DNA of 64,000 nt from Oscillospiraceae bacterium (GTDB lineage Bacteria > Bacillota > Clostridia > Saccharofermentanales > Saccharofermentanaceae), in assembly GCA_902775565.1 (NCBI GenBank), contig CACYMP010000004.1, positions 62,001-126,000 of the forward strand, read 5' to 3'. The notes under the pieces are model-generated. The model did not search any database and was not told the DNA's origin. It saw only the letters and a program-made list of their open reading frames with translations. How positions within the stretch are numbered: the first letter of the stretch is position 1; each line of letters begins with the position of its first letter. Position numbers and translations under genes: made by a program. Shown here piece after piece: positions 13,191 through 27,588 of this stretch.

Positions 13191-15761
13191 TTAAACGCAC
13201 TTTATGCAAAGTCTTATGAGATTCATTACGCACTCCTGAAGGTCAGCTCTCGAAAGCTTGTTGTTATAGACTGCGGTGATGATCTCATCAACGTTCTGCT
13301 GGCATCCCGGCATCTGAAGGTCACAGCCGGCATAGACGCAGAGTCTGGAGAATGCAGGCGGATACTTCGTATTCTTGTTGTAGCCTAAGAATGCAACATC
13401 TTCGAAAGACGAGAACCAATCAGTCATAACGATGCCTTCGAAGCCCCATTCATCACGAAGGATGTTCTGAATGAGCTCATAATTATTGCATGTGTGCAAT
13501 CCGTTTACAAGATTATAGGAAGCCATGACAGCGAAAGGCTGTGCTTCCTTAACGCAGATCTCGAAGCCCTTGAGATAAAGCTCTCTCAAAGCACGGGGCG
13601 AGATGTGCGCATTGGTGAACATACGGTTGTCTTCCTGGTTGTTCGCGCAGAAATGCTTGATCGTCGTTCCGCGTCCGTCAACCGACTGAACGCCCTTTGT
13701 ATCAGCAGCAGCGCAAAGACCCGAAAGGAGCGGATCCTCCGAGAAGTACTCAAAGTTTCTTCCGCATAAGGGGTTCCTGTGGATATTCATTCCCGGAGCG
13801 AGCCAGAGGTTGACTCCGTACTCTTCCATCTCCTCACCTACCATATGGCCGAGCTTCTCGATAAGATCCATATTCCATGTCTGTGCAAGAGCTGTCGCCG
13901 TAGGGATCATGGTGCAGTACTGATAGTAATCGATCGCATCTTCAGGTGTGTCCTCAGGGAAAGGATTATTGATGTAGCCGAAGATCTCGCCGCCGCGGAG
14001 AAGGTCTCCTTCTTTTGTTGCCTTGAAATGAGGCTGGAGTCTGAGGCCTGCAGGGCCGTCAGCCATAACGATCGGCGGGATCTTACGGGAAACAAGATAT
14101 CTGTCTATTGTCTCGGATGCGGCGCCCGGAACATTTCCGGAAGCTGAGAAAACTATACCTTCATCAAGGTCGCCCCTGTCGAAATTACCGACGCAGAGCT
14201 CTGCAAGTTCGGGAACAGAGAATTGTGCGACGAGCTGGGAGATGCCGGCATTGCGTCCGATAACGGAACCGAGCGTGATCGTGTCATCACGGCGCTCGTC
14301 TACATGAGCTTCATTAACGCCTCTGTATCTGACGATACCTCTTCTGATACGGAACGTATCGAGCGTGAGCCTTCTCGCTGTCTCAAGCTGTGCTTCGTCA
14401 AGATGCGCGCGGGCCTTCTTGCCGGTTCCGGGATTCTTGAGTTCGTCAAAAGCGTATTTTGCTTCATCGAGCATGAAGCGCTGATACTTCTCGGTGGTTA
14501 TCTGCTCGGGAATATTAATGACCGCTTCGATCTTTGTCTCGCGCGAGCTGGTACCGACTCTTATGATGTAGTCGCCCTGGTCTATAACTCTTGCGCAGAG
14601 GTCATCGTCATATGAAGAGAATCTTGACGCGTCAAACGTTATCTCGAGGAGCTGGGACTCGCCCGGCTGAAGGAGCCTTGTTTTCGCGAACGCGGCAAGT
14701 TCCTGATAAGGCTTGTCTATTCTGTCCTGAGGGGCGGAGAAATAAACCTGAACGACCTGTTTGCCTGCAAATTCGCTTCCCGTATTCGTGACATGGGCAT
14801 ATACGGTGATGACAGCCGAACTGGTCTCAACCGAAGTAACTTCAAGAGAGAATGTCGTGTAGGAACGTCCGAAGCCGAACGGATAAGCCGGTGCTACGCC
14901 GAACGAATCGAAATATCTGTATCCTACGTAGATGCCTTCCCTGTAGAATTCGTCATCCGTATCGCCGTTGTTCGAACCGAACTCCGCGGCTCCCGGATAA
15001 TCGTCATATGTCTTGGCCCATGTATCGGTAAGCTTGCCCGAAGGATTGACCTTGCCCGTGATGATATCTGCGATGATATAACCGCCCAGGTTGCTTATCT
15101 GGCCGGCGAGAAGGAGCGCGCCGAGTCTCGGATCGCTCTTGAGTTCTGAAGTGTCGATTATGCCGCCGGAATTGATGATGACTATGGAATTGGCGTAATG
15201 GCTGATAACGAAATCGATGTTGGCCTCTTCTTCTTCAGACAGGTAATAATCGCCCTTGTCTGCAACTCTGTCACGGCCTTCACCCGATTCGCGGGCAATA
15301 ACATAAATAGCGGTGTCGCAGGCCGAATCGGCAAAATCCTGTTCTGTGATCAGCGGCTCGGCAGTAAGAGGACGTGCAACCTCAAAATATGCATTGGCCA
15401 AAGCGATATTCTGTGCTTCGGAATATGCGGCTACCGTAGCTTTGTAATCAGCGAGGTTGCTGTCGTAAGACTCGTCATATCTTGAAAGCCATCCGTCGGT
15501 CGTGATCTCAAAGCCTGCATCCTTGAGACCGTCATATACGTTTATATCGAATCTCGTATTGACCTCGCCCGAACCGGAACCGCCCCTGACAGTATGTCTG
15601 GCGCCGTTGCCGTAGAGTGCTATCCTGCCGGGCTGCCTGATAGGCAGCGCACCTCTGTTCTCAAGGAGTACAGGACATTCACCTCCAAGTTCACGAACAA
15701 GGTTCATGTGAAGGATCTCAGAATCCGTCATCTCGTCAGAAAGTCTAGCGCGAAATTCCAT
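13191..15761 (-). CDS. GH3 beta-glucosidase with permuted domain order
   Basis: An 856-aa glycoside hydrolase family 3 protein, probably a beta-glucosidase or related exo-glycosidase. The domain order is reversed relative to ordinary GH3: residues about 30-260 are the alpha/beta sandwich normally found second (RIALYGNGARHTVRGGSGSG, ALLLAGQISNLGG), then a fibronectin-III-like domain (SVETSSAVITVYAHVTNTGS), then the TIM barrel (APGMNIHRNPLCGRNFEYFSEDP, GTTIKHFCANNQEDNR). The nucleophile Asp is in VMTDWFSS near residue 781. The same arrangement is known for beta-glucosidases of Ruminococcus albus and Butyrivibrio. No signal peptide, so the enzyme is intracellular and acts on imported oligosaccharides. 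ATG at 15759-15761 has AAGGAGG 9-10 nt upstream. First gene of a three-gene operon. Confidence 0.9.
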   Translation of the reverse strand: MEFRARLSDEMTDSEILHMNLVRELGGECPVLLENRGALPIRQPGRIALYGNGARHTVRGGSGSGEVNTRFDINVYDGLKDAGFEITTDGWLSRYDESYDSNLADYKATVAAYSEAQNIALANAYFEVARPLTAEPLITEQDFADSACDTAIYVIARESGEGRDRVADKGDYYLSEEEEANIDFVISHYANSIVIINSGGIIDTSELKSDPRLGALLLAGQISNLGGYIIADIITGKVNPSGKLTDTWAKTYDDYPGAAEFGSNNGDTDDEFYREGIYVGYRYFDSFGVAPAYPFGFGRSYTTFSLEVTSVETSSAVITVYAHVTNTGSEFAGKQVVQVYFSAPQDRIDKPYQELAAFAKTRLLQPGESQLLEITFDASRFSSYDDDLCARVIDQGDYIIRVGTSSRETKIEAVINIPEQITTEKYQRFMLDEAKYAFDELKNPGTGKKARAHLDEAQLETARRLTLDTFRIRRGIVRYRGVNEAHVDERRDDTITLGSVIGRNAGISQLVAQFSVPELAELCVGNFDRGDLDEGIVFSASGNVPGAASETIDRYLVSRKIPPIVMADGPAGLRLQPHFKATKEGDLLRGGEIFGYINNPFPEDTPEDAIDYYQYCTMIPTATALAQTWNMDLIEKLGHMVGEEMEEYGVNLWLAPGMNIHRNPLCGRNFEYFSEDPLLSGLCAAADTKGVQSVDGRGTTIKHFCANNQEDNRMFTNAHISPRALRELYLKGFEICVKEAQPFAVMASYNLVNGLHTCNNYELIQNILRDEWGFEGIVMTDWFSSFEDVAFLGYNKNTKYPPAFSRLCVYAGCDLQMPGCQQNVDEIITAVYNNKLSRADLQECVMNLIRLCIKCV

Positions 15762-15805
15762 ATATAGCACCCTCCTTATAAGGATCGGCATAGGTCCGAT
15801 ACTTG

Positions 15806-15865: not shown

Positions 15866-16945
15866 TTACTTTAGCTGTTCCCCGCTGATGTCCTTTGTAA
15901 GGAGCGCGTACTCGTATTCGTTATCGAAAAACACCTTGGCATAGTGGCCTGATATCTTGCCGTCCCTGCAGAGCGCGCCGATGCTCTCTCCGCCGGTCTG
16001 CTGAAGCTGTATCATCATCGCGCCGGTAAGCGCTGCTCCTAATCCCGCATGCTCAGGAAGCGCGCCGAGATAAGGCAGAACATATGCCTCAGCCTTCTTT
16101 TTTCTCTTGAGGACTCCCAAAAGATTGATCAGGTTCTTAGTGTTATAGACCCTTGCGCCGTAATCGGGAACGCCGATAAAGAATGCGACTGCCTCGCCCT
16201 GATAATAAGCCATCTTCACATATCGCATGTCGAGGATCAGCCTGTAATCGTTAAAGATCTTTCTGAACTCCTCTTCAGTCAGGCCGCGGTATATCGGGAA
16301 GTTGCTGTAAAGCCTCGTTATCAGCACATAGATCTCACCTATGACCTTGTCGAATTCTTCAGGCAGGGGGCTTCTTATCTCGTATCCCTTCGCCCTGAAT
16401 TCATTGAGTCTTTTCACATACTTCGCATCGGGCTCGACGATCTTCGTGAAGTAGTTGGAAATGTAATGCTCGCAGACCTCGTACCCGTTATCGGTAAACT
16501 GCTTCAGATAGTAATCGAGATTGTACGGCTCGCCCGTGTAAGGAAGCCTGTCGAAAAGGTTTATCTTGAGCCTGTATTTGATCCAGAAAGAGCAGTCAAC
16601 GGGACCGGTTATCCTCTTGTATCCCATCTCCGAAGCGATCCTTGCCGCGTTATCGAAAAGGAACTTTGCGGCCTTTTCATCGTTGACGCATTCATAGAAA
16701 CCGATGTAGCAGACAGGGTCATCCTCATATCTTGTAAAGCAGAATCTTCCGCACACCTTGCCGTCATCGTAGATGAGGAATTTATCAAGCTTAAAATAGT
16801 GCGAGAGCGGATGCGTTTCCGTAAGAATGCGCGTAATATCCGATACGCTCTCGGTGTTGTTCTTACGCGTATAGAGCTTCTTTTTGAGGGCAATGAAGTC
16901 CTTAATGTATTTCTCTTCCTTGTCGAATCTGACTATCTCAAACAC
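15866..16945 (-). CDS. GNAT-like N-acyltransferase family protein, last gene of the lipid operon
   Basis: A 359-aa soluble protein that looks like a two-lobed GNAT acyltransferase: an N-terminal lobe (CGRFCFTRYEDDPVCYIGFYE) and a C-terminal lobe (YYQGEAVAFFIGVPDYG). Its middle carries the pattern GPVDCSFWIKYRLKINLFD ... P ... YNLDYYLKQFTDNGYE, which matches the GP-S-W-GLL-DGF-P-YN-YY layout of a widespread GNAT-related family. The donor and acceptor are unknown. GTG start at 16943-16945 with GGAAAGAG upstream, 4 nt after the preceding stop, so it belongs to the lipid operon. A role in N- or O-acylating a lipid head group or amine is inference from context. Confidence 0.6.
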   Translation of the reverse strand: MFEIVRFDKEEKYIKDFIALKKKLYTRKNNTESVSDITRILTETHPLSHYFKLDKFLIYDDGKVCGRFCFTRYEDDPVCYIGFYECVNDEKAAKFLFDNAARIASEMGYKRITGPVDCSFWIKYRLKINLFDRLPYTGEPYNLDYYLKQFTDNGYEVCEHYISNYFTKIVEPDAKYVKRLNEFRAKGYEIRSPLPEEFDKVIGEIYVLITRLYSNFPIYRGLTEEEFRKIFNDYRLILDMRYVKMAYYQGEAVAFFIGVPDYGARVYNTKNLINLLGVLKRKKKAEAYVLPYLGALPEHAGLGAALTGAMMIQLQQTGGESIGALCRDGKISGHYAKVFFDNEYEYALLTKDISGEQLK

Positions 16946-16949
16946 TGTC

Positions 16950-19205
16950 TTACTCTTTCCTTCTGACGATCTCGATCCTGCCGGAAGAGCCGTCCATCCT
17001 CACGATGTCTCCTGTATTTATCCTGTTCATTACGTCAGCGACGCCGACGACCGAAGGTATCCCGATCTCACGCGAGATTATTGCGGTGTGGGACAGGATC
17101 GATCCCTTCTGAGATATTACACCTTTTGCAGATGCAAGGTAGAATACCCAGCCCGGGTCAGTCATCTTTGTAACAAGGATCTTGTCTTTGCAGCCCTCGA
17201 GCATCGATATGTCTTCAACAACGAGAGCCTCGCCCTCCGAGATCCCGCCCGAGCACGGAACGCCCTGCATGACACCTTCAGAAGAACGCATCCTGTGCGA
17301 ATTCACGCTGACGTGGTGCTTGGAGAATTCCTTTTTCTCGAAAATGATCCTCGAGAACGCAGGCAGGCACTTATACATGCGGTATTCGTTCCTGCGCTGC
17401 TTTATCCTGTCTTTCGCATCAAAAGACTCTTTTGCCATGGCGAACATCTCATCATATGTCAGGTAGAAGATATCCTTTTCGCTGTCGATCAGGCCGGCGG
17501 CAAGGAAGTTCTTTCCGAGGCTTCTTACTATCTCCCTCACCATACCGTAGATGCGGCTTCTGTTAAGTCTGGATATTTCCCTGTTGGAAATGCCTGTGGT
17601 GCATCTTGCAGCGAGCTTTCTTATGCGTCTGCTCTCGCCCGACATGTCGCGGGCATCGTCCTTCATTATGCTCTTATGGATCTCTTCGAGTTTTGCCTCA
17701 TCTTCGCAGTACTCGTCTATCTTCCTGATGAGAAGCGACGGATCCGTTCTGAACGTGGGGCTCTCGAGCTTTAATTCCTCGAGATTGCGGTCACCGTAGA
17801 GCTTTATGTATTCTTCCGTGCGTTTCTCGAATTCCTCCTGTGACATATCTTTCCTGTGATACGCAAGATCTATCATGGCACGCACAGGCTTTAAGCTTTC
17901 GATATTGGTAATACCCGACAGGAACTCATTGGTCTTGTCATCGGCATCAGCATGCTTTTTCCTCAGGAAATGCTTCAGAAGTCCCGTGTAAACAAAAGTG
18001 TACAGGTCGTTTATCAGCGTGATGTCCCAGCAGGCGAGAAGTTTTTTCTCGATGACGGCGTATTGCGCGAGGAGCTCTTCGTTACTCATTCCTTCATGAT
18101 ATGACTTATAGAATTCGTCATTGATCCTGATGAATTCCCTATTGAGCTTTTCCATCTCGGAAGGCGAATTCAAGAATGCCCTGATTATGCGCCTGTTGAT
18201 CCTCATGCGCTCGGCAAAGGACACTTTCATATCCTGTTTTTCATCGTATGTCTTGTTCTTTACACCGAGCATCTCCTGCCAGACCGGGATTATCTTTTTC
18301 CTGAACGGAAGGAACTTGATAAGCGTGTACCAGTTGGAGATCTTGTAGTACATGCGGCCGTTTACATTGCCCACCATGTTCCCGAAAACGGGCTTCAACC
18401 CGTCCAAGTACTTGCCTTCGCCGATAATCCTTCTGCAGAGCCCCTCGAAAACGCCGCTGTAGACAAAGCCGACAAATCCGCATGTCAGAGGCAGGCTTAA
18501 GTTCGGATAACTCTCAACGATATTGCTGTTATCTAATATCAGGAACTTTGACGGATCGCATCCGGCGAACGTCGTGATCTTCCTGGCCTGAAGGATATAG
18601 ATCCTGCCGTCCTTGATCGAGAACTCTATATCAAGATAATCTCCCAGGAGTTCTTTTATCTTCGATGAGATACCGATCAAGTCATGGATCTGATCTGACG
18701 TGAGCATATCGTCAGCGCCCTCGTAGTAATACAGATCATCGTTCGTGTTGTAGTAGTAGCTCGTCGTATCGGTCCTGTCGGAAACGACTTTGTCGCCTGT
18801 TCCCTTACCGACCGTGATGACGCACTCGTTCATTATTCCCTGGGGATTTGCGGTGAACATGATCCCTGCAAGATCCGCATCGATCATCTTCTGGACGATA
18901 ACGCTCATCTTAATGTCTTTGCCGATCTCACGCTGCTTTAAGTATTCAGCCGCGCCCTCATTGGAGACGGATGCCATGCAAAGATCTATCTTTTCCTGAA
19001 GCTCGTTTTCCGTAACGCCAAGGAACGTATCGAACTGTCCGGCAAAGCTGTCTGACGCGCCGTCTTCGACATCGGCCGACGATCTTACTGAACTGATCTT
19101 CCAAGTAACGTCAGGTGCCTTTCCGTCCGTAACGACGACAAACTCAGGAACCGGTATTCCGTTGTCCCTCATCAGTATCAGATTGTCGGCTTTGCCTCCG
19201 TACAT
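16950..19205 (-). CDS. Rifampin-phosphotransferase-like (PPDK/PEP-synthase family) enzyme 1
   Basis: About 751 aa. N-terminal ATP-grasp of the pyruvate-phosphate-dikinase type (GGKADNLILMRDNGIPVPEF, SSVRSSADVEDGASDSFAGQ, MFTANPQG, YLDIEFSIKDGRIYILQAR), a long helical middle domain (about 250-630), and a C-terminal swivelling His domain with SHTAIISREIGIPSVVG; His at about 706. In this family the His carries the beta-phosphate of ATP to an acceptor, releasing AMP and phosphate. The order ATP-grasp, substrate domain, His domain is that of rifampin phosphotransferases rather than of PEP synthase, so the acceptor is likely an alcohol. The ATP-grasp is unusually short, lacking most of the segment between the GGK loop and RSSA motif. 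ATG at 19203-19205 shares one base with the ubiA stop (TGATG) and has AAAGGA 8 nt upstream. Confidence 0.75.
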   Translation of the reverse strand: MYGGKADNLILMRDNGIPVPEFVVVTDGKAPDVTWKISSVRSSADVEDGASDSFAGQFDTFLGVTENELQEKIDLCMASVSNEGAAEYLKQREIGKDIKMSVIVQKMIDADLAGIMFTANPQGIMNECVITVGKGTGDKVVSDRTDTTSYYYNTNDDLYYYEGADDMLTSDQIHDLIGISSKIKELLGDYLDIEFSIKDGRIYILQARKITTFAGCDPSKFLILDNSNIVESYPNLSLPLTCGFVGFVYSGVFEGLCRRIIGEGKYLDGLKPVFGNMVGNVNGRMYYKISNWYTLIKFLPFRKKIIPVWQEMLGVKNKTYDEKQDMKVSFAERMRINRRIIRAFLNSPSEMEKLNREFIRINDEFYKSYHEGMSNEELLAQYAVIEKKLLACWDITLINDLYTFVYTGLLKHFLRKKHADADDKTNEFLSGITNIESLKPVRAMIDLAYHRKDMSQEEFEKRTEEYIKLYGDRNLEELKLESPTFRTDPSLLIRKIDEYCEDEAKLEEIHKSIMKDDARDMSGESRRIRKLAARCTTGISNREISRLNRSRIYGMVREIVRSLGKNFLAAGLIDSEKDIFYLTYDEMFAMAKESFDAKDRIKQRRNEYRMYKCLPAFSRIIFEKKEFSKHHVSVNSHRMRSSEGVMQGVPCSGGISEGEALVVEDISMLEGCKDKILVTKMTDPGWVFYLASAKGVISQKGSILSHTAIISREIGIPSVVGVADVMNRINTGDIVRMDGSSGRIEIVRRKE

Positions 19206-20113
19206 CAGATGAGTCCTTTCCACTTACAGAAAATGTAACCTGCAACGGTGATGAGCATCGCGCTTTCCTGAATGTATGTGTAGCGTTCGACCTTTTCGAC
19301 GATAACAAACTTTTCCGGATCCTTGTTGAACTGCAGAAATTTGATGGTCATCCACGTGGTAAGGCCGCAGAAGAACAATACCGTGGGCTTGCTGAGATTC
19401 CATACGAGAACGATGTTTGTGAGGATGTCGACGATGGTCAGAACGAGCACGAACCAGATGGCTTTCTTGTAGCCCCAGAGCTTGGAATAAGTAACGTATT
19501 CCGTCTCGTCCTTCGGCGCTCTGATCTTTCTCGATACCTCCCAGATGAGAGCCGGGAAATAAAGCGTCCAAAGTGTCATGAGAGTCGTGATCGAGAATGG
19601 ATTAAGCTGATATTTGATAACCGTGAAAGAGATGATGTAAAGGTTGATTATCATCTGCACGGGGTTATGCGTTACGAGCGCGGCGAAAAGATTCGGCTGG
19701 ATCTTCGCCTTCTGGAAGAACCAGTTCCTCATCAGGAACCCGTACGCGTAAAGGATCGCGCAGAATATCAGATTGTTCATGAAGATGATATTCAGAGCGA
19801 TCGCGATGGCCTGGAAAAAGATGCAGGATATGATTATGTCCTTCTTATAGACGCGTCCCGATGCAAGTGGCCTGTCCGGGAAGAGCTTTTTGTCGGTCTC
19901 GTAATCCTTGAGGTCGTCAGCGACACGGAGCCACAAAAGGAATGCGAACACGGTATACGCACCCGTAACTTCCTGCATGCCGAGCCTGAACTCGAGCACA
20001 CCGTAGTTGAGAAGTATTATGAAATAAATCTCGCCGAAGACTATCATGCCGAGAAGCAGCCTGGCAAGCAGCGGATATCTTTCTTTGTAGTATATGTAAA
20101 GTCTCTTAAACAT
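19205..20113 (-). CDS. UbiA-superfamily membrane prenyltransferase
   Basis: A roughly 302-aa integral membrane protein with eight or nine hydrophobic helices. UbiA enzymes transfer a prenyl group from its diphosphate to an acceptor. The first metal-binding motif is clear (DDLKDYETD followed by PDRPLASG near residues 63-87), matching the NDxxDxxxD...RPLxSG pattern. The second is altered: the usual DxxxD region reads EVSRKIRAPKDE then YSKLWG. The family includes digeranylgeranylglyceryl-phosphate synthase of archaea and quinone enzymes; acceptor here is unknown. ATG at 20111-20113 overlaps the psd stop by 8 nt; a GTG six nt earlier is an alternative. Neighbours are phospholipid genes, not quinone genes, which favours a lipid acceptor. 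Confidence 0.8.
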   Translation of the reverse strand: MFKRLYIYYKERYPLLARLLLGMIVFGEIYFIILLNYGVLEFRLGMQEVTGAYTVFAFLLWLRVADDLKDYETDKKLFPDRPLASGRVYKKDIIISCIFFQAIAIALNIIFMNNLIFCAILYAYGFLMRNWFFQKAKIQPNLFAALVTHNPVQMIINLYIISFTVIKYQLNPFSITTLMTLWTLYFPALIWEVSRKIRAPKDETEYVTYSKLWGYKKAIWFVLVLTIVDILTNIVLVWNLSKPTVLFFCGLTTWMTIKFLQFNKDPEKFVIVEKVERYTYIQESAMLITVAGYIFCKWKGLI

Positions 20114-20972
20114 ACTCACAAACCCCTATATGTTCTCCCATTTTAACCTTTGTCTCTATCCCGTTTCCACTCATTTCAAGGATGTCATCGTCGACTTTGA
20201 TCCTATCCTTTTCGAAAAACAGGACGACAGTCGATCCGCCCTGCTCAAAATATCCTTTTTCCTGACCTTTCTCAAACTTCAAAGCGCCGTTATTCTTTAT
20301 CCTTCCTACAAGTAGCGCGCCAACCTCGATATAGATTACCTTTCCGAAATGATCGGTATCAAGAACATTTACAATGCGGTGGTTCTCTTTATAGATCTTG
20401 TACTTTGACGATATCGAGCTGACGGTGTGAAGCTTTCCTTTGATCTCGTTTGAAGATAATACCCTGCCCGAATCGATGAAGCAGTAGTGGTGATAGTCAT
20501 CCATCGAAAGCCTGAATACGAGAGCTTTGCCGCCGGCGAAAGAACTCAGGTCAGTACAGTTCCCCGTAATCTCCTCCGGTGTATACACGCTTCCTTTTAC
20601 GGTAAACTTCAGATCATCACCGATGTCATAGCATAAGACTTTGGAATCAGCAGGAGAAATGATGACGGAAGGATCTTGATCGGCAGGACGTCTGCCCGGC
20701 TTGATCCTGCGCGTGAAAAAATCGGAAAACGAAACGTATTCGCGCTCCTCAAAATCATCCATAAAGATCTTGTATTCCGCGATAAACGGAGCGATCTTTT
20801 TCGCACTCGACTTTCTTCTGTCTTTCGCAGTTGCCATAGTCGAGAATACAGGAAGAAGAATAAACTTCGAAAGCACTCTGCCGTACCATGTGTTATAAAG
20901 CCGCTCCAGCGAACTTCCGCCGTACTGGCGGTCTTCAATGAAGCTCTTATCCTGTCTTACGTATATCTTCAT
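20106..20972 (-). CDS. psd: Phosphatidylserine decarboxylase (or archaetidylserine decarboxylase-like)
   Basis: A 288-aa pyruvoyl-dependent decarboxylase converting a phosphatidylserine-type lipid to the ethanolamine form. The proenzyme cleavage site is GGST (FEQGGSTVVLFFEKD), with Ser at about 247 becoming the pyruvoyl group. LSMDDYHHYCFIDSG gives the DYHxx..DSG motif, and FFTRRIKPGRRP is the N-terminal landmark of the Clostridium-type (class II) enzyme. ATG at 20970-20972 overlaps the pssA stop as ATGA; the longer frame runs inside pssA and is rejected. Substrate chain type (acyl or isoprenoid) cannot be read from the sequence. Confidence 0.9.
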   Translation of the reverse strand: MKIYVRQDKSFIEDRQYGGSSLERLYNTWYGRVLSKFILLPVFSTMATAKDRRKSSAKKIAPFIAEYKIFMDDFEEREYVSFSDFFTRRIKPGRRPADQDPSVIISPADSKVLCYDIGDDLKFTVKGSVYTPEEITGNCTDLSSFAGGKALVFRLSMDDYHHYCFIDSGRVLSSNEIKGKLHTVSSISSKYKIYKENHRIVNVLDTDHFGKVIYIEVGALLVGRIKNNGALKFEKGQEKGYFEQGGSTVVLFFEKDRIKVDDDILEMSGNGIETKVKMGEHIGVCEYV

Positions 20973-21586
20973 CTGACGAAAATGATATATACGGCAAACA
21001 AAGCGATAGCGAGCAGCATGAGGAAGATATATCCCTTCTTCCCCGGCTTGATGAACTTGATCTTCAGTATGAACAGCAATGCCATTATCTCCATCGCGAT
21101 GCACATGAAAAGCGCAGTCACCTCAGTGTTGAAATACAGATGAAGAAGATAGACAAGAGGAAAGACAAGAGCAGCATAAGTAACAGGCATGCCCGTATAG
21201 TATTTGATCGGCGAATCCTTGTCTTCGTTTTCTTCCTGGCAGACATTGAAATATGCAAGTCTTGCAATACCGAAAACAGAATACAATACAGCTGCGACTG
21301 CCGCATACCAGGTAAGACCTGCGAGCTTGACTATCAGCACTACGGGAAGCACGATGAAGCTTACAACATCGACCAAAGAATCAAGCTGAATGCCAAAGTT
21401 CTTCTCTTCTTCAGTCCTCTTGCACATCCTTGCGATCGTGCCGTCGAAAAGGTCGCAGATACCCGCGCCCATGAAGCACATCATCGCAGATTTATAAAAA
21501 CCTGACATCAGAAGAAAGATCGAAGCAACTGCAAGGAGCATTCCGACATAAGTTGCGATAACAGACTTGTTCCACTTGCCGATCAT
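20969..21586 (-). CDS. pssA: CDP-alcohol phosphatidyltransferase, PssA (phosphatidylserine synthase) type
   Basis: A 205-aa membrane enzyme with about six helices that condenses a CDP-lipid with L-serine. The family motif is seen as DLFDGTIAR, then G near residue 64, and QLDSLVDVVSF, i.e. D-x2-DG-x2-AR-xn-G-x3-D-x3-D. There are 11 residues between AR and G rather than the common 8-9 (MCKRTEEEKNF), a small insertion. LDSLxDVVSF is typical of serine rather than glycerol or inositol transferases, and the psd gene directly downstream supports that. GGGGAG is 7 nt before the ATG, which starts 1 nt after the preceding stop. Confidence 0.88.
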   Translation of the reverse strand: MIGKWNKSVIATYVGMLLAVASIFLLMSGFYKSAMMCFMGAGICDLFDGTIARMCKRTEEEKNFGIQLDSLVDVVSFIVLPVVLIVKLAGLTWYAAVAAVLYSVFGIARLAYFNVCQEENEDKDSPIKYYTGMPVTYAALVFPLVYLLHLYFNTEVTALFMCIAMEIMALLFILKIKFIKPGKKGYIFLMLLAIALFAVYIIFVR

Positions 21587-21587
21587 G

Positions 21588-24107
21588 TTATTTCTCCCCG
21601 TTTATCGTAACGATGCCGGTGGCGCCGTCAATCGTTATTGTCTGTCCGTCCTTTATCTTCGTAAGAGCGTCATGGCAGTTGACTATCGCGGGAATACCGT
21701 ACTCGCGCGATACGATTGCAGCGTGGCAGAGAATACCGCCGTATTCGGTAACGATGCCGGAAAGGATCGCAAATTTAGGTGTCCATCCCGTATCGGTAAA
21801 TCTCGTGACAAGGATATCGTTCTGCTTGAGCCTGTCGATCTCGGAGAAATCATAGATGACCCTTGCAGTGCCCGTGACGACGCCGTTGTTTGCGCCAATT
21901 CCCCTGATCGCATCATCACCTGCTGCGGCAGAAGCTGAAGAAGGATTGCTGAAGATCTCGCCGATCTCATTCTCGCTCATGTAATTGCGGAACGAATTGT
22001 AATATCTTCTGTTCTTTCTAATGATCCCGTTCAGATCGTCAGATGTGATCTTACCGTTAAGATAATCCCAGACGTTGCCGACCTTGAGCATCCAGATGTC
22101 GTCCTCATTTTCGAGGACTTTCTCTTCTACGAGCTTCTTTGAAAGCAAGGCCGTATAAACGCGGATCAGATAATAGAACCTGGTCGATACGTCCCTGAAC
22201 TCCTCACGCCACCAGAGCATGCGGCGCATTCCGTCGACCTTTTTCCTGATCTTGCCATATTTAGACGCGCTGAGGTTCTTCTCAAGGGATGCAAAGATCA
22301 CTTCGCTCTTGAGCTTGCCCTCTTTCCTGTCCTTCTCAGGACCAAAGTCACCCGTGAGCGGCAGCATGTCCTTTACGGATGCGACGAGCGGGAGCGGATC
22401 TTCGTAGTAGCAAGGATATGTGACATCGAGTTCCTTGTCTGAGTGATAGCCGAACTTTTCAACTATATCTTTCATGCCCGGGATAAGATATTCACCGCTG
22501 TCTATATTTTTCGTAATCTCTTCAGCGGTTGTGCTGTTCCAGTATGAAAGCGCTGCGCTGTCGTTCCTGATCTTTCTTGACAGATCCCACATCGCATAGA
22601 AAGGAAGCATATGGGAAATGTTATCGATGCTTCCTAAGAGCGTTAAGTATTCGCTCTCGGAAACATACTTGAGAAGTCCGTCCTTATAGAGCGACTGGTG
22701 GATCGTGTTGATGAATATCTGCCAGAAATAAGTCGTCTCGCTGTGCAGGTAGATATCGTGAGTCAGGTTCATGAAGCGCGACTTGATATCGTCTATCGTA
22801 TGGTTGTCGTAATTCTTCCAGTATTCCTCATAGGTCTTCAGAAGATCGCTCTTTAACGTCTCGGCATTCTCATTTCTTTCCTTGAGGATCTTCTTCTGGG
22901 CAAGAGCCATGCGCGCGATATGGACAAGCGCACCGGGAGTTGCTCTCGTTACATGGCCGTCGCCTTCATATGTACGTCTGATGCCGTATTCCTGGTCGAA
23001 CTCCCTTTCCCTGTACCCGACGACCTGGCTCATGGCAAGCTTTACGACCGAAAGATTCCAATAGGGCCTGCCGTAATACATCTCGCCAAGCTTTCTTTCA
23101 AGATCCTTTTCGGTGAGGATCTTCGAATCAAGGATGAACTTCCTCAAGGAATGCTCCCAGATATATTCATAAAGGCTCCACATGTACGGAGTACATACGG
23201 TGGCTGAAACGCCGCCGTCCTTGAAGTCCGCGGTCGTCCAGATATCCTTGAGGTCTCCGTAATTTATCTTGGTGATGCTCCTTGACTGAAGGATAAAGAG
23301 TTCGCCATTTTCCACAGCGAATTCGATATCGCAGGGATAGCCGAAATTTATCTGAATGTCTGAGAACACCTTGCCCATCTTTTCGAGCATGGCGTCATCA
23401 AGGAGTCCGGCTTTGTTTGAAGCTACGGGCTTCATCTCATATCTGTCGTACTCGTACTGTTCGGGATTGACCTTGCCGCTTACGATGTTCTCGCCTAAGC
23501 CTTCGATCACCTCGATGAGCATTCTCTTATCGTTTCCGGTGACCGGGTTGACCGTAAAGCAGATACCGCTTAAGTCGGAATTGACCATCTCCTGAACGAC
23601 AACGGCCATCGCGAGATCATCAGGATCGATCTTATTTGCCGCTATGTAGCTGATGCCCGTTTTATCGAACATCGAACGGTAGCAGTCTATGACCTTTTCG
23701 GCAATAGAATCCGCGCCCTTCGTGTTAAGGAACGTCTTATACTGACCTGCAAAAGAGAACTCCGCGAGGTCCTCTTTCGTCGCGGAAGAGCGCACTGCGT
23801 AGCACTTGGAATCATCAGTCATCGAAGCGATCTTCGAGATCATTTCGTCATCTGCTTTAAGGCCTTCGAAAAGAGCTTCTATCGCTTTGCCTGTAGCCTC
23901 GGCATTCTCTGCCGAAAGCTTACTCATCAGATCGGATATCTTATCTGCGATGCCGTTTTTCTTAACAAATGAACGGTATTCTTCCGCGTCCAGGACAATT
24001 CCGTCGGGAACGTTGAAACCGGCTTTTCTCATCTCTACGAGATTGCCGGCTTTGTTGCCTGATTCATTCTTAGTCGATTCGGGTCCTGAACTAATCCTGT
24101 AGATCAT
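21588..24107 (-). CDS. Rifampin-phosphotransferase-like (PPDK/PEP-synthase family) enzyme 2
   Basis: An 839-aa paralogue of the other dikinase-like gene of this operon, more complete. ATP-grasp at about 1-285 (GNKAGNLVEMRKAGFNVPDG, AVRSSATKEDLAEFSFAGQ, CFTVNPVTGNDKRMLIEV, DIEFAVENGELFILQSRS), a helical substrate domain (about 290-720), and a C-terminal His domain with GGILCHAAIVSREYGIPA, His at about 795. The residue before the His is Cys where Ser or Thr is usual. The middle domain starts IWTTADFKDGGVSATVCTPYMW, as in RPH-like proteins whose middle domain binds an organic acceptor. No PEP-synthase-type C-terminal PEP-binding barrel is present, so central-metabolism function is unlikely. Acceptor unknown; a lipid alcohol is inferred from the neighbours. 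Confidence 0.78.
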   Translation of the reverse strand: MIYRISSGPESTKNESGNKAGNLVEMRKAGFNVPDGIVLDAEEYRSFVKKNGIADKISDLMSKLSAENAEATGKAIEALFEGLKADDEMISKIASMTDDSKCYAVRSSATKEDLAEFSFAGQYKTFLNTKGADSIAEKVIDCYRSMFDKTGISYIAANKIDPDDLAMAVVVQEMVNSDLSGICFTVNPVTGNDKRMLIEVIEGLGENIVSGKVNPEQYEYDRYEMKPVASNKAGLLDDAMLEKMGKVFSDIQINFGYPCDIEFAVENGELFILQSRSITKINYGDLKDIWTTADFKDGGVSATVCTPYMWSLYEYIWEHSLRKFILDSKILTEKDLERKLGEMYYGRPYWNLSVVKLAMSQVVGYREREFDQEYGIRRTYEGDGHVTRATPGALVHIARMALAQKKILKERNENAETLKSDLLKTYEEYWKNYDNHTIDDIKSRFMNLTHDIYLHSETTYFWQIFINTIHQSLYKDGLLKYVSESEYLTLLGSIDNISHMLPFYAMWDLSRKIRNDSAALSYWNSTTAEEITKNIDSGEYLIPGMKDIVEKFGYHSDKELDVTYPCYYEDPLPLVASVKDMLPLTGDFGPEKDRKEGKLKSEVIFASLEKNLSASKYGKIRKKVDGMRRMLWWREEFRDVSTRFYYLIRVYTALLSKKLVEEKVLENEDDIWMLKVGNVWDYLNGKITSDDLNGIIRKNRRYYNSFRNYMSENEIGEIFSNPSSASAAAGDDAIRGIGANNGVVTGTARVIYDFSEIDRLKQNDILVTRFTDTGWTPKFAILSGIVTEYGGILCHAAIVSREYGIPAIVNCHDALTKIKDGQTITIDGATGIVTINGEK

Positions 24108-24119
24108 AAAACTTTCCTT

Positions 24120-24722
24120 TTAGAACATATTCTTGCGCAGATGCGCGAAATATAAAAGCATGTTGAAGATGATGTGCGTCACCGCTCCGACGATAACATA
24201 GACGAAATAGAACCATACCGGAAGCGGATGGAATAGGCATACGACCAAAACGCACCCGAAGATCGAATCAGACTGGTCTAAAAATACGAACAGGACCTTC
24301 TGCCAACCCTTCATCGTTTTTCCGGGTTCTATTCCGAGACGCCTTTTAAGAAAGCTGTTCGGGAGCTCAAAAAGCGCATAGGCAAAGCCTACGAGAAGTC
24401 CCGTCAAGAGATTGAAGACAATAGTATTCTCATGTTCGAGATAAAAGAAATCGTGGTTCTGAAGCGCAGGAGATGCCTTGCAGATAAAGCCCCATATGAG
24501 AGTCATCAGAGTTCCTAAGATCAGGTAACCTGCAAAACCCTTCCAGGTCTTGTTGTCGCCGAAGATGCGCCTGCCGTCCGTGAAATTCTTCCCTGCATCC
24601 ATAGGCTTTTTGAGAAAACCGAGGATCGGAAGCTTGCAGAAGACCATATTGAAGATCCCTGCAAATATCACCGGCATTAGTGTAACGTACATGAATGCCA
24701 GGCTTGTCAGGACGCTTTTCAT
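24120..24722 (-). CDS. CarS-like (CDP-archaeol synthase/DUF46 family) membrane protein
   Basis: A 200-aa polytopic membrane protein. GRRIFGDNKTWKGFAGYL near residue 46 and LDQSDSIFGCVL near 150 are the two hallmark segments of the CarS/DUF46 family, whose archaeal members activate unsaturated archaetidic acid with CTP. The wider superfamily includes CdsA, dolichol kinase and phytol kinase. Bacteria do carry members, function mostly untested. Start: ATG at 24720-24722, 4 nt after the upstream stop; the longer frame intrudes into that gene. The 12-nt gap to the next gene places it second in the lipid operon. It could be a cytidylyltransferase for a non-standard phosphatidic acid or a CTP-dependent lipid kinase. 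Confidence 0.8.
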   Translation of the reverse strand: MKSVLTSLAFMYVTLMPVIFAGIFNMVFCKLPILGFLKKPMDAGKNFTDGRRIFGDNKTWKGFAGYLILGTLMTLIWGFICKASPALQNHDFFYLEHENTIVFNLLTGLLVGFAYALFELPNSFLKRRLGIEPGKTMKGWQKVLFVFLDQSDSIFGCVLVVCLFHPLPVWFYFVYVIVGAVTHIIFNMLLYFAHLRKNMF

Positions 24723-24726
24723 AGCT

Positions 24727-27588
24727 TTACCATTTCCATTCCTTAAAAAGTCTCTTGCCATCGGACGAATGACGCTTGCGCCACTCGTTGCCGGCCGCGA
24801 TGACTATCATGATGACGCCTGCGATGAGCAGGTACAGAAGCCACGCCATGGATGACCAGAACGTCGCCGACAGATAGACCGCTATGCCGATGATAGACAC
24901 AACTCCAAGTATAAACCAAAGCCTGCTCTTTTGTATAAAAGAAAATAAGAAAATACCGCCGGCTGCAACTCCGGTCACTATCAGGTCGAATGTCTCGCCT
25001 GTTATTGCCGCTGAAATGCCCTCAACCGTAAGGCACGCTGCTACGGCAGCAAACCAGGTGTATTTCATAACCTTTTCGTCTGCGGGCTTGATGAAGAACC
25101 TGAAGATAGCAACATCAAGAAGTATCACACAGAGGACAAATTCGGTCATAAATCCGTCAGGGATCTCTATTAGCTGCTGGGCGATAACGGCAGCCGCCAT
25201 CGGGACCGAAGCTATGAACGCTACTTTCCTTGCAGACACCTTCGTCCTTCCGATGAAGTTGAAGATCATTAGAGACAGCGACATGAAAACGAGTGAATAG
25301 ACGTAATCTCCGCCTTTAAGGCCAAAGAGCAGGATGACCGGGATGAACGCGAGATAATCTATGCCCTTCCCCGAGAAGACTCTCTTTCTGTAGAACAGTC
25401 TGCCTAAGGCGAACTGGCCCAGTGTAAGAGTTATGAATAAGAGGTTATGCAGACCCTTTGCGGGAATACGGACAACATCCGTAAAGAATTCAGTGGCCGC
25501 GAATTCAAATGCCGCCAGCGGCAGTATCGCGTAAAACTCGTTTCCGCAGAAATAAAGTGCAAGCAGGATAAAGGGCATTGCGAACATGTGCCATGTTGCA
25601 TCCCATTCCATAAAGCTCAGGACTGTCCAGACGCAGAGCATTCCGCTGATCATATGCGTCATGTGCTTTGCGTATGGCAGGAGCTTTTCCTTTTTGAACA
25701 GAGGTACAAAACGGAGCAATACCAAGGAGCATGCCATGACCGCAAACATCACGCAGTAAGCAATCTTATAAGCCAGATGATCAGTATTTGCGATATCAAG
25801 GATCGTCCCCGGAACAAATGCCACAAATGCGGGAGCGTTCATCGCAAGCGAAATGACGAAGAACGAAGACAAGCTGAAAGACCCCTTCTTCTTTGCATTT
25901 AGGTAATAGTTGTACGCAAGCAGCAGTGAAGCTGCGAAAAGAAGTATTCCGCTTATCCAGATCTTTATTGTCACATCTGAAAGTGAAAGATTCGTGTGCT
26001 CAACTTGCCACCTGAGTTCTTTGATACTCGGGCGGCTTATCATTCCGAAAAGGATCGTAGCCCAGTTCATCACCTCTGATGCTATCCTGATCCTGTAATC
26101 ATCTTTTACGAAATGCCTGATGAGAGTCAGTACCAGAACGGCAGCAAGTGCTAAAGGCATGAAAATGACGAAATTGAGTGTGATGTCTTCATAACCTGTG
26201 ATCTTCCACATCAGCACAACTGTCATGATGTAAAACCACATGCCTGCATGCCCCGCATTTATACCGCCGGAAGTCTTTGTTTTCGAGAATAGGGATGACA
26301 GCACGGACATAACGGCTGCAATGCCGGCGGCAACTATTACCGCTATATGTATTCCGGACAGAAGATCTGCAATCAGAAGAGTGAAGACCATTACCGAAGT
26401 GAAAAGTATATCCGACAAGAGCGTGCGGAGCTTAGTCAGGAAATATACCGCATAAAGGACCACAAAAAGTCCGGTTACGATCCATCCTGACTCAGGATAT
26501 CCGAAATCGGAGATAAGGATCGTGAAGAAAGTGGCCAAAGCTGCGAAAGGTGCCAAATACTTAACCCAGTTCCTTTTCGGTGTGAATCTCGCATGAAGGA
26601 TCAGAGCTGTATTTGCAAGAACGGTTCCCGCAAGAGTAAAGTATCCGTCGCTTCCGTCATCCACGAAAAGAAATACGGCTATTACCATCAGAAGCACTGA
26701 TGCGTAAGTGATTATCTCTGAATAGATCCTGAAATCAGGCTTAACGTCATCAGATCTGAATATCATGATGATGCGCAGGATCACCGCCAGCACCGCGATC
26801 GCAATAAAGATGCTTTCATAAGTATAAGCGTATGAAGATTCCTCTCCTATCTGGCCGGATACGAATACGATGAGCCAGGTAAATGAGAAATACGTGATAC
26901 CCGTATAGAATTTCGATTTATAGATATACTTGCCTGCTACCGCTGATACTGCCATGACAAGCGAAGCAACGGCGGCAACGATCCATCCGTTTCCGTTCGA
27001 AAAAGAGAACCACTTGCCAAGGAGCCTGAACATTCCGACTCCGACAACGACGATCGGACCCAGAAAGCTTCCGAGCGTATAGAAAGCAAAGCCTGTCTGT
27101 TTGAGCTTCAATTCTTTCCCCGACAGGAATGCCAGGAAATATACCACCGCAACGGCCGCGACAAGCGTAATTGCTCTGGCGGCATTTCCCATGAAGCCCC
27201 AGGATACCGAAAGAAATGCAGCGCCAACAATAGTGAGAAGTAATACGCCGACGCCGAAAGTGATGCTCGTGCTGCTGATGCGGGACCTCTTCTTGGCAGC
27301 AACTGTTGCTGCAGGAACAGGTGCCGGCTGGACCACGGGCGCAGGCGAAGCTGCGAGTGCAGGTGCAGGTGCGGTAACCGGAGCAGGAGCCGCAGGTACA
27401 TGAGGCGCAGCCTGATATACACGGCCTGCCGCTTGTGCACGCTCATTATACTGGTCCTGCTTTATGTTAAAGAGTTCCCTGCGCGCATTAATATACTTGC
27501 GTACAAATGTAATAAGCAGTATCTGAAGTGCGATCGCATACGGCAGAACAATAAAGATACAGAATAATCCAAAATCTTCCAGATCCAT
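24727..27588 (-). CDS. Very large polytopic membrane protein, first gene of the lipid operon
   Basis: A 953-aa protein not recognised. It has one N-terminal helix (about 8-28), a charged cytoplasmic stretch, a Pro/Ala-rich linker (about 60-95, repeated PAPAP) and then, from about residue 108 to the end, an almost unbroken series of roughly 25-28 hydrophobic helices with very short loops. The layout recalls DUF2157/DUF2339-type membrane proteins of unknown function. No catalytic motif was seen. It is separated by 4 nt from the carS-like gene and has the operon promoter upstream, so it belongs to the same unit; a flippase, transporter or lipid-modifying role is guesswork. Confidence 0.65.
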   Translation of the reverse strand: MDLEDFGLFCIFIVLPYAIALQILLITFVRKYINARRELFNIKQDQYNERAQAAGRVYQAAPHVPAAPAPVTAPAPALAASPAPVVQPAPVPAATVAAKKRSRISSTSITFGVGVLLLTIVGAAFLSVSWGFMGNAARAITLVAAVAVVYFLAFLSGKELKLKQTGFAFYTLGSFLGPIVVVGVGMFRLLGKWFSFSNGNGWIVAAVASLVMAVSAVAGKYIYKSKFYTGITYFSFTWLIVFVSGQIGEESSYAYTYESIFIAIAVLAVILRIIMIFRSDDVKPDFRIYSEIITYASVLLMVIAVFLFVDDGSDGYFTLAGTVLANTALILHARFTPKRNWVKYLAPFAALATFFTILISDFGYPESGWIVTGLFVVLYAVYFLTKLRTLLSDILFTSVMVFTLLIADLLSGIHIAVIVAAGIAAVMSVLSSLFSKTKTSGGINAGHAGMWFYIMTVVLMWKITGYEDITLNFVIFMPLALAAVLVLTLIRHFVKDDYRIRIASEVMNWATILFGMISRPSIKELRWQVEHTNLSLSDVTIKIWISGILLFAASLLLAYNYYLNAKKKGSFSLSSFFVISLAMNAPAFVAFVPGTILDIANTDHLAYKIAYCVMFAVMACSLVLLRFVPLFKKEKLLPYAKHMTHMISGMLCVWTVLSFMEWDATWHMFAMPFILLALYFCGNEFYAILPLAAFEFAATEFFTDVVRIPAKGLHNLLFITLTLGQFALGRLFYRKRVFSGKGIDYLAFIPVILLFGLKGGDYVYSLVFMSLSLMIFNFIGRTKVSARKVAFIASVPMAAAVIAQQLIEIPDGFMTEFVLCVILLDVAIFRFFIKPADEKVMKYTWFAAVAACLTVEGISAAITGETFDLIVTGVAAGGIFLFSFIQKSRLWFILGVVSIIGIAVYLSATFWSSMAWLLYLLIAGVIMIVIAAGNEWRKRHSSDGKRLFKEWKW

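Follow-up and report, generated by a model that had tools for sequence, protein, structure and literature searches.

A conserved seven-gene set in rumen and gut bacteria that may specify an accessory lipid pathway

A tightly conserved gene set occurs in about 250 bacteria of the rumen and gut; at its core is a unit of seven genes in the order CarS-RPH2-PssA-Psd-UbiA-RPH1-GNAT. The best explanation, to which we assign a probability of roughly 0.58, is a dedicated accessory lipid pathway that runs beside normal phospholipid synthesis and leads to an ethanolamine-phosphate lipid on a non-standard core. A literature search, with most subscription journals outside it, found no paper describing this gene combination.

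The genes lie in a 64,000-nt stretch, here called the window, from an Oscillospiraceae bacterium (assembly GCA_902775565.1, contig CACYMP010000004.1, 62,001-126,000); positions are given in forward-strand numbering of the window. Eight same-strand genes with tight gaps or overlaps had been proposed there by a sequence-only reading, and re-examination of reading frames and starts bears this out: all eight are present and intact on the minus strand, at the place and in the order proposed. The first encodes a large multi-span membrane protein (BigTM, 24727-27588) and overlaps by 35 nt the gene for a CarS-like CTP:lipid-phosphate cytidylyltransferase (24120-24761), gene 1 of the conserved unit. 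After a 12-nt gap comes RPH2, a dikinase of the RPH/PEP-synthase type (21588-24107, gene 2), and 1 nt further on a PssA-type CDP-alcohol:serine phosphatidyltransferase (20969-21586, gene 3). The start of the Psd-type phosphatidylserine decarboxylase (20106-20972, gene 4) was re-assigned from a longer GTG frame at 21104 to the ATG at 20972, which gives a 4-nt ATGA overlap with PssA. Psd overlaps by 8 nt a UbiA-superfamily membrane protein gene of the PRK13592 kind (19205-20113 from its ATG start, gene 5), which overlaps by 19 nt RPH1, a second dikinase-type phosphotransferase (16950-19223, gene 6); a 4-nt gap separates this from the gene for a tandem GNAT-fold acyltransferase (15866-16945, gene 7). 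Is the set read from a single promoter, as had also been proposed? The best promoter-like sites of the region do flank it, one just 5' of BigTM at 27659-27630 (minus strand, TTTACA-18-TATTAT with an extended -10 TG, 10/12 consensus matches) and one at 15834-15806, between GNAT and the next gene, but a consensus scan of the region found 15 sites against 16.1 expected in shuffled sequence, hence no excess. The positions of these candidates fit one transcript, and a single promoter is plausible.

Among 59 loci of the Lachnospiraceae/Saccharofermentans type with enough flanking sequence, 44 have all seven genes in order, with a median gap of 0 nt, and every gene is under purifying selection (dN 0.02-0.19 vs dS 0.54-1.6). 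Conserved order and purifying selection place the arrangement far beyond chance. The neighbourhood is kept far beyond close relatives, the main point on which the proposal of a conserved lipid operon had been staked, and that proposal stands. UbiA and CarS also occur together: across 85 genomes of the window's genus, 39 have both, 44 have neither and one has each without the other (Fisher 6e-22, a value that counts genomes and not independent events); the CarS-only case ends at a contig edge. Carriers in culture include Butyrivibrio sp. INlla14 and XPD2006, Lachnospiraceae P6A3 and AC2028, and Ruminococcaceae YRB3002.

The gene list of the sequence-only reading needs amending at both ends. BigTM, which it counted as an operon member, is transcriptionally linked within the window yet lies outside the conserved unit; its homologues were seen in just a few close relatives (loci L046/L079 and L068/L084), and it matches no family above cut-off (a weak SCO7613 C-terminal match has 17.7 bits, cut-off 45). 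Absent from the list is an AMP-forming acyl ligase gene, which most relatives have 3' of GNAT and the window's clade lacks. The seven other genes hold their place in the unit, although RPH2 is dispensable, being missing from the whole genomes of three operon carriers (L127, L144 and L151). As RPH2 and the acyl ligase are each missing from some carriers, not every step is obligatory. A UbiA-RPH1 fusion in two loci (L067/L138) was considered as Rosetta-stone evidence and rejected; the junction has cost UbiA its end and RPH1 its ATP-binding N-terminus, and the fusion is a deletion or assembly fault.

CarS belongs to PF01864 (74.7 bits, cut-off 22), its profile matches the solved ApCarS structure 5guf (E 5e-8), and the motifs PxDxGxxxxDGxRxxGDxKT, SFxKRR and DQxDS are conserved; it falls below the equivalog model PRK04032 (85.7 bits vs cut-off 148). 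Elsewhere the host genome encodes a normal CdsA and also a PgsA-type enzyme, which leaves CarS in excess of what ordinary phospholipid synthesis requires. With this second cytidylyltransferase beside CdsA, a separate CDP-lipid is likely made via CarS. Weak CarS matches (20-38 bits) in operon-free genomes were set aside; they sit in frames of the 290-aa class, and in the window's own genome such a match is at the CdsA locus. PssA (PF01066, 49.3 bits, cut-off 22) has the DxxDGxxAR...GxxxDxxxD motif and scores 83.8 bits against the equivalog TIGR00473 (cut-off 107); Psd (PF02666, 170 bits, cut-off 22) has the GGST self-cleavage site.

Could the operon simply make ordinary phosphatidylethanolamine (PE), with CarS acting as an additional CDP-diacylglycerol synthase, PssA and Psd in their normal roles, and UbiA, the RPH proteins and GNAT serving a different modification encoded on the same transcript? 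The window's genome has no PssA or Psd but those of the operon, which there might in principle serve ordinary PE synthesis as well. Promiscuity is a feature of Psd enzymes (PMC9385802), and genome G079 has an operon without Psd and a standard Psd elsewhere, a sign that one Psd type may stand in for the other. Against this, other members of the genus possess a standard locus (flippase-like, PssA, Psd) as a second one, at least eight genomes carry an additional Psd beside the operon, and the operon and standard PssA and Psd of the genus form separate clades. With the host's CdsA, the second standard PssA-Psd locus of some relatives argues that the operon is probably not for ordinary PE. CarS and UbiA are, moreover, present or absent together across the genus, and in none of the loci seen do RPH1, UbiA and GNAT stand apart from the head-group genes. 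Archaeal CarS selects against phosphatidic acid (PMC9385802), and the operon CarS may do the same. The ordinary-PE explanation is on balance unlikely. The bacterial CdsA-PssA-Psd route has the PssA and Psd chemistry in common with the operon, which differs in having its own cytidylyltransferase and attached core-building genes, and in lying, in some genomes, alongside the standard locus.

Databases mostly label RPH-type dikinases 'phosphoenolpyruvate synthase'. Both RPH-like proteins of the operon consist of PPDK_N (ATP-grasp) and PEP-utilizers domains with a C-terminal His domain (679-748 of 757 and 761-831 of 839), and neither has the PEP/pyruvate-binding TIM barrel that follows the His domain in PEP synthases. 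The RPH2 profile matches the rifampin phosphotransferase structures 5hv2/5fbs (E 1e-102) and its catalytic His, in GGILCHAAI, is invariant; RPH1 comes close to NF004882 (823 bits, cut-off 850) and has its catalytic His in GSILSHTAI. The ATP-grasp and swivelling phospho-His domains with the catalytic His are shared with rifampin phosphotransferase and the HpeHI/PpsAB dikinases, but the operon proteins fall far below the rifampin-enzyme equivalog NF041857 (201 and 303 bits, cut-off 999) and have a lipid-synthesis context. Enzymes of this type phosphorylate hydroxyls of small molecules, releasing AMP (PMC4844700, PMC12167813). RPH1 always adjoins UbiA in operon loci, and the RPH proteins that neighbour UbiA in Roseinatronobacter and Streptomyces clavuligerus belong to its subfamily; RPH1-like enzymes can also work without UbiA, as a Streptomyces durmitorensis relative has no UbiA annotated alongside. 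GNAT matches no family above cut-off, and a PDB sequence search with it gave spurious matches only. Its AlphaFold model (pLDDT 89) best matches the tandem GNAT structures 2wpw and 5kf1, and the acyl-CoA-loop motif HxGLGxAL and GPVDxSFWIKYR are conserved.

Apart from PEP synthase, the nearest characterized dikinases have phenols or rifampin as substrates (PMC12167813, PMC4844700), aromatics are the usual prenyl acceptors of UbiA enzymes, and most carriers are species of the rumen and gut. Might RPH1 then phosphorylate a phenol or prenol from the environment, plant-derived in the rumen, which UbiA couples to a lipid and CarS, PssA and Psd provide with a head? There is no transport or catabolic gene within the unit, the UbiA-RPH1 pair is also found in an alkaline-spring alphaproteobacterium and in Streptomyces, and the habitat pattern is biased by the sampling of rumen metagenome-assembled genomes. 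Such salvage seems very doubtful.

The operon has the same series of enzyme kinds as the archaeal phospholipid pathway (DGGGP synthase, CarS, archaetidylserine synthase, decarboxylase) and likewise uses CarS rather than CdsA. The archaeal-style steps seen by the sequence-only reading hold for the order of chemistry and for the fold of UbiA, whose AlphaFold model (pLDDT 84) is closest to archaeal DGGGP synthase (7bpu, TM 0.67/0.72; Foldseek matches 7bpu/6m31, TM 0.66-0.72). They fail at motif 3 of this protein. By sequence, UbiA scores 29.8 bits with Pfam (cut-off 34.2) and 388 bits with NCBIfam PRK13592 (NF010118, cut-off 443). Motif 1 is kept, DDLKDYETD aligning with NDIFDIEID of 6m31 with D for the first N of NDxxDxxxD. 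Motif 3, its columns matched by eye from flanking sequence, reads RKIRAPKDE against the archaeal KDFEDMEGD, with K196, A199 and E203 instead of three Asp residues; the altered motif is conserved in three phyla, and the equivalents in MjDGGGPS, Asp 180, 183 and 187, are each needed for activity (PMC9385802). Weak UbiA matches elsewhere in the phylum (G490, G494, G537 and others) have no RPH or other operon gene adjoining, and no UbiA of this kind was found in viral contigs.

No archaeal equivalog model reaches its cut-off on the operon proteins, the DGGGP synthase model PRK12883 giving 21 bits with UbiA (cut-off 353). A look for araM/egsA and pcrB elsewhere in the genome, suggested with the archaeal comparison, did not favour it: GGGP synthase (PcrB) was not found in the host genome (93.6% complete), the sub-threshold PcrB-like match there being tryptophan synthase alpha (TrpA), and the G1P dehydrogenase homologue (PRK00843, 220 bits) reaches about half its cut-off of 413. 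The homologue occurs in 8/12 genomes irrespective of the operon; carriers G115 and G071 lack it, and non-carriers G058 and G114 have it. Each of the 12 genomes, with or without the operon, has one prenyl synthase gene (PF00348), none dedicated to the operon, and it is the modelled fold and motif 1 of UbiA alone that suggest a prenyl donor. The operon further differs from the archaeal pathway in its extra RPH, GNAT and acyl-ligase genes. A true archaeal-type ether lipid, G1P-based and twice prenylated before CarS, archaetidylserine synthase and decarboxylase act, is highly improbable despite a precedent of archaeal-lipid genes in FCB bacteria (PMC7852524), and the evidence gives no support to a genuine archaeal pathway.

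How, then, might the accessory pathway work? From conservation, co-occurrence, families, folds and the changed motif, we infer its order, substrates and product. UbiA, RPH1 and the tandem GNAT, with the AMP-forming acyl ligase in most relatives, would build a non-standard hydrophobic core. RPH1, as a dikinase (ATP to AMP and Pi, with a phospho-His carrier), would place a single phosphate on a hydroxyl of the core precursor, and the UbiA-fold enzyme, with Lys/Arg perhaps replacing the second Mg2+ site, would couple a prenyl or other chain to this phosphorylated precursor in the membrane. CarS would convert the phosphorylated core to a CDP-lipid, PssA would exchange CMP for serine, and decarboxylation by Psd would yield an ethanolamine-phosphate lipid other than ordinary diacyl PE. 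RPH2 might be an optional second kinase, e.g. for salvage or re-phosphorylation of the core. The sequence-only reading had the RPH-like enzymes phosphorylate an alcohol ahead of CTP activation; as three operon-bearing genomes are without RPH2, it is not an obligatory source of that phosphate everywhere.

Two plasmid loci outside the Clostridia bear on the core-building genes. On plasmid unnamed3 of Roseinatronobacter sp. S2, UbiA and RPH1 of the same subfamilies are adjacent, with a GNAT relative and an AMP-forming ligase, but DUF3419 (BtaA-like) takes the place of CarS-PssA-Psd; the GNAT is shorter, the ligase only distantly similar, and there is a 439-aa membrane protein. DUF3419 is a betaine-lipid synthase family (PMC10685587), which suggests that the core module was kept and the head-group module exchanged, an exchange seen in this one alphaproteobacterial locus. 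In the Streptomyces clavuligerus plasmid cluster, RPH and UbiA relatives are adjacent and UbiA has the same motif, DExKDxExD ... ExxRK, but AfsA-type, ICMT-type and reductase genes stand where the operon has head-group genes. A broader proposal is possible, if tentative: an undescribed lipid class in which an exchangeable module (RK-motif UbiA, RPH1, GNAT and acyl ligase) would make an ether- or prenyl-linked core from a mono-phosphorylated precursor, with differing head groups, phosphoethanolamine by way of CarS-PssA-Psd in gut Clostridia and a betaine type in one alphaproteobacterium.

Little is known of the membrane lipids of Clostridia from rumen and gut. Were a CDP-lipid pathway to run on a cytidylyltransferase of its own next to CdsA, the cells would have a second pool of phospholipid, synthesized separately. 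An ether bond made by the UbiA-like enzyme would bear on the lipid divide, via an enzyme other than the archaeal one. If the reading is true, it would also give RPH-type dikinases their first biosynthetic role in lipid assembly. As cultured carriers exist, the pathway is directly testable.

The eight open reading frames proposed in the sequence-only reading are present on the minus strand (window 27588-15866), and their spacing is as tight as was claimed: every junction is an overlap or a gap of 12 nt or less, given a Psd start at ATG 20972. Domain searches of these frames support the identities of CarS, PssA, Psd and a UbiA-superfamily protein, and show an ATP-grasp and a C-terminal phospho-His domain in each of the two rifampin-phosphotransferase-like dikinases, RPH1 and RPH2. 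Structure modelling (pLDDT 89) makes the last product a tandem GNAT, with 2wpw and 5kf1 as its best PDB matches. One promoter-like site precedes the first gene and a second follows GNAT, ahead of the next gene; such sites occur no more often than expected by chance.

How widely is the neighbourhood conserved? A single scan across 84,980 species genomes yielded 249 UbiA-encoding stretches; the best 80 of these are nearly all from rumen and gut Lachnospiraceae or Saccharofermentans-type Clostridia, and near-identical operons are found in rumen MAGs labelled Saccharofermentans or Clostridiales. The order CarS-RPH2-PssA-Psd-UbiA-RPH1-GNAT is kept across these Clostridia, with all seven genes in 19 of the 20 loci examined first and in 44 of 59 with enough flank (missing in place: PssA in 10, Psd in 3, RPH2 in 3). 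The median intergenic gap is 0 nt, and comparison of the window with three close relatives shows purifying selection on each of the seven genes. This is a real, conserved and undescribed accessory lipid operon. The large membrane protein counted as its first gene (24727-27588; 953 aa, a Pro/Ala-rich N-terminal stretch, weak SCO7613 C-terminal similarity) falls outside the conserved unit, being found in the closest relatives only.

Some records are irregular. A few of the best 80 bear Saccharibacteria or Fibrobacter labels and are most likely wrongly named MAGs; the operon carriers L149, L132, L143 and L150, labelled Fibrobacter succinogenes or Candidatus Saccharibacteria, are probably mislabelled or mixed. 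UbiA and RPH1 share one frame in L067 (9441-12479; the same record as L138), where the UbiA end and the RPH1 ATP-binding N-terminus are gone, which points to a deletion or assembly fault. Locus L036/L131 (10060-10902) has a small lipoprotein-like frame (184 aa, MKKYRLTATVLICALALTACG) between UbiA and RPH1; Psd is not in its place there, and a standard Psd lies elsewhere in that genome.

An AMP-binding acyl ligase follows GNAT in 73 of 99 loci by flanking-ORF clustering, some records counted twice, at a median distance of -4 nt. It is missing at that place in the window's clade, and no close relative of it is encoded elsewhere in the window's source genome, where the best match scores 103 bits (true members, about 800). 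A GH3 family glycoside hydrolase (13191-15791), with Glyco_hydro_3_C preceding Glyco_hydro_3, stands there instead, directly downstream of the operon. In Butyrivibrio sp. INlla14 (L096, 6767-8581) RPH2 is apparently truncated, at just 604 aa, and the locus lacks a following acyl ligase.

Catalytic His and ATP-site residues are kept in RPH1 and RPH2. In relatives of known function the beta-phosphate of ATP goes to a rifampin or phenol hydroxyl group, and AMP and Pi are released (PMC4844700, PMC12167813). RPH1 and RPH2 score far under the rifampin and PEP-synthase cut-offs. RPH2 is not obligatory, since three whole operon-bearing genomes lack it (two of them small assemblies of 1.3 Mb).

Is the product an archaeal-type lipid? 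The order of steps is similar to the archaeal route, as had been proposed, but the likeness does not extend to a complete homologous pathway. The source genome has no GGGP synthase, its weak PcrB match being TrpA. A G1P dehydrogenase homologue is encoded there, but 8 of 12 genomes have one irrespective of the operon. It adjoins a HAD phosphatase gene (L171, 6984-8732, contig C5 of the source genome; likewise L045, 1498-3237). In G132, G063 and G118, but not elsewhere, the dehydrogenase gene is separated from the operon by about 15 kb or less. Polyprenyl synthase is found once per genome in 12 of 12.

The UbiA model (pLDDT 84) is closest in fold to archaeal DGGGP synthase (TM 0.67/0.72), followed by a mycobacterial membrane phosphoribosyltransferase (0.52). 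Motif 1 is retained; the counterpart of KDFEDMEGD (D180, D183, D187), the third Asp motif in DGGGP synthase, reads RKIRAPKDE in the window's protein. Mutation of any of these three Asp strongly reduces MjDGGGPS activity (PMC9385802), so UbiA, judged by sequence, is not a DGGGP synthase. A chain-transfer role may nonetheless remain; with a basic residue where the metal ligand would be, the site could suit a one-phosphate substrate, such as a dikinase product.

Could the operon make ordinary PE? In the source genome the operon is the sole PssA/Psd source; CdsA is also present, with a second CDP-alcohol phosphotransferase predicted, from match strength, to be of the PgsA type. In the window's genus, 39 of 85 genomes carry UbiA together with a strong CarS, 44 carry neither and 2 are discordant (Fisher 6e-22, related genomes not being independent); in one discordant genome, G060, CarS and RPH2 sit at a contig end. 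Psd is absent from 35 of the 85, and eleven have Psd without UbiA. Of four fully read Psd loci outside the operon, three carry flippase-like, PssA and Psd genes (L174, L175, L178), and the fourth, L176, shows PssA and Psd. At least eight genomes have the operon plus a second, non-operon-type Psd, and operon-type and standard Psd and PssA form separate clades (support 100/99 and 95/93). CarS is thus surplus to the needs of normal phospholipid synthesis, and the product is probably something other than ordinary PE, even though the source genome has no further source of PssA and Psd.

Outside Clostridia, the one full-length UbiA relative from a protein search of annotated plasmids belongs to Roseinatronobacter sp. 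S2 (25.7% identity, E 8e-6); it stands in the row UbiA, RPH, DUF3419, membrane protein, GNAT-like, AMP ligase. Clostridial operon profiles match its UbiA (E 7e-16) and GNAT (E 8e-11), and its ligase weakly; its RPH scores 397 bits with the RPH1 profile versus 209 with RPH2. The membrane protein (L160, 4932-6251; 439 aa) contains KRKLVHVGTGIY, a stretch reminiscent of CTP-dependent phytol/dolichol kinases, a likeness that no Pfam match backs. The UbiA-RPH1 pair is common to this cluster and the clostridial operon, whereas the head-group gene here is DUF3419, to which betaine lipid synthases belong (PMC10685587). RPH and UbiA relatives are adjacent in Streptomyces clavuligerus too, with AfsA-type and ICMT-type neighbours. 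On a Streptomyces durmitorensis plasmid (L161, 4669-14991) an RPH1-like gene occurs with AfsA, ICMT-type, P450 and two KAS III genes, and no UbiA is annotated near it. The motif ExxRKxxA...YSxxxG is common to UbiA of three phyla, in which UbiA and RPH1 are paired and the adjoining head-group genes differ. Mainly because of this recurrence, UbiA, RPH1 and GNAT can be read as a core-building module and CarS, PssA and Psd as a head-group module, a reading with few loci behind it. The chemistry of the head-group half is fairly secure, and the best reading of the operon is that its product would be a dedicated lipid with an ethanolamine-phosphate head and a non-standard core.
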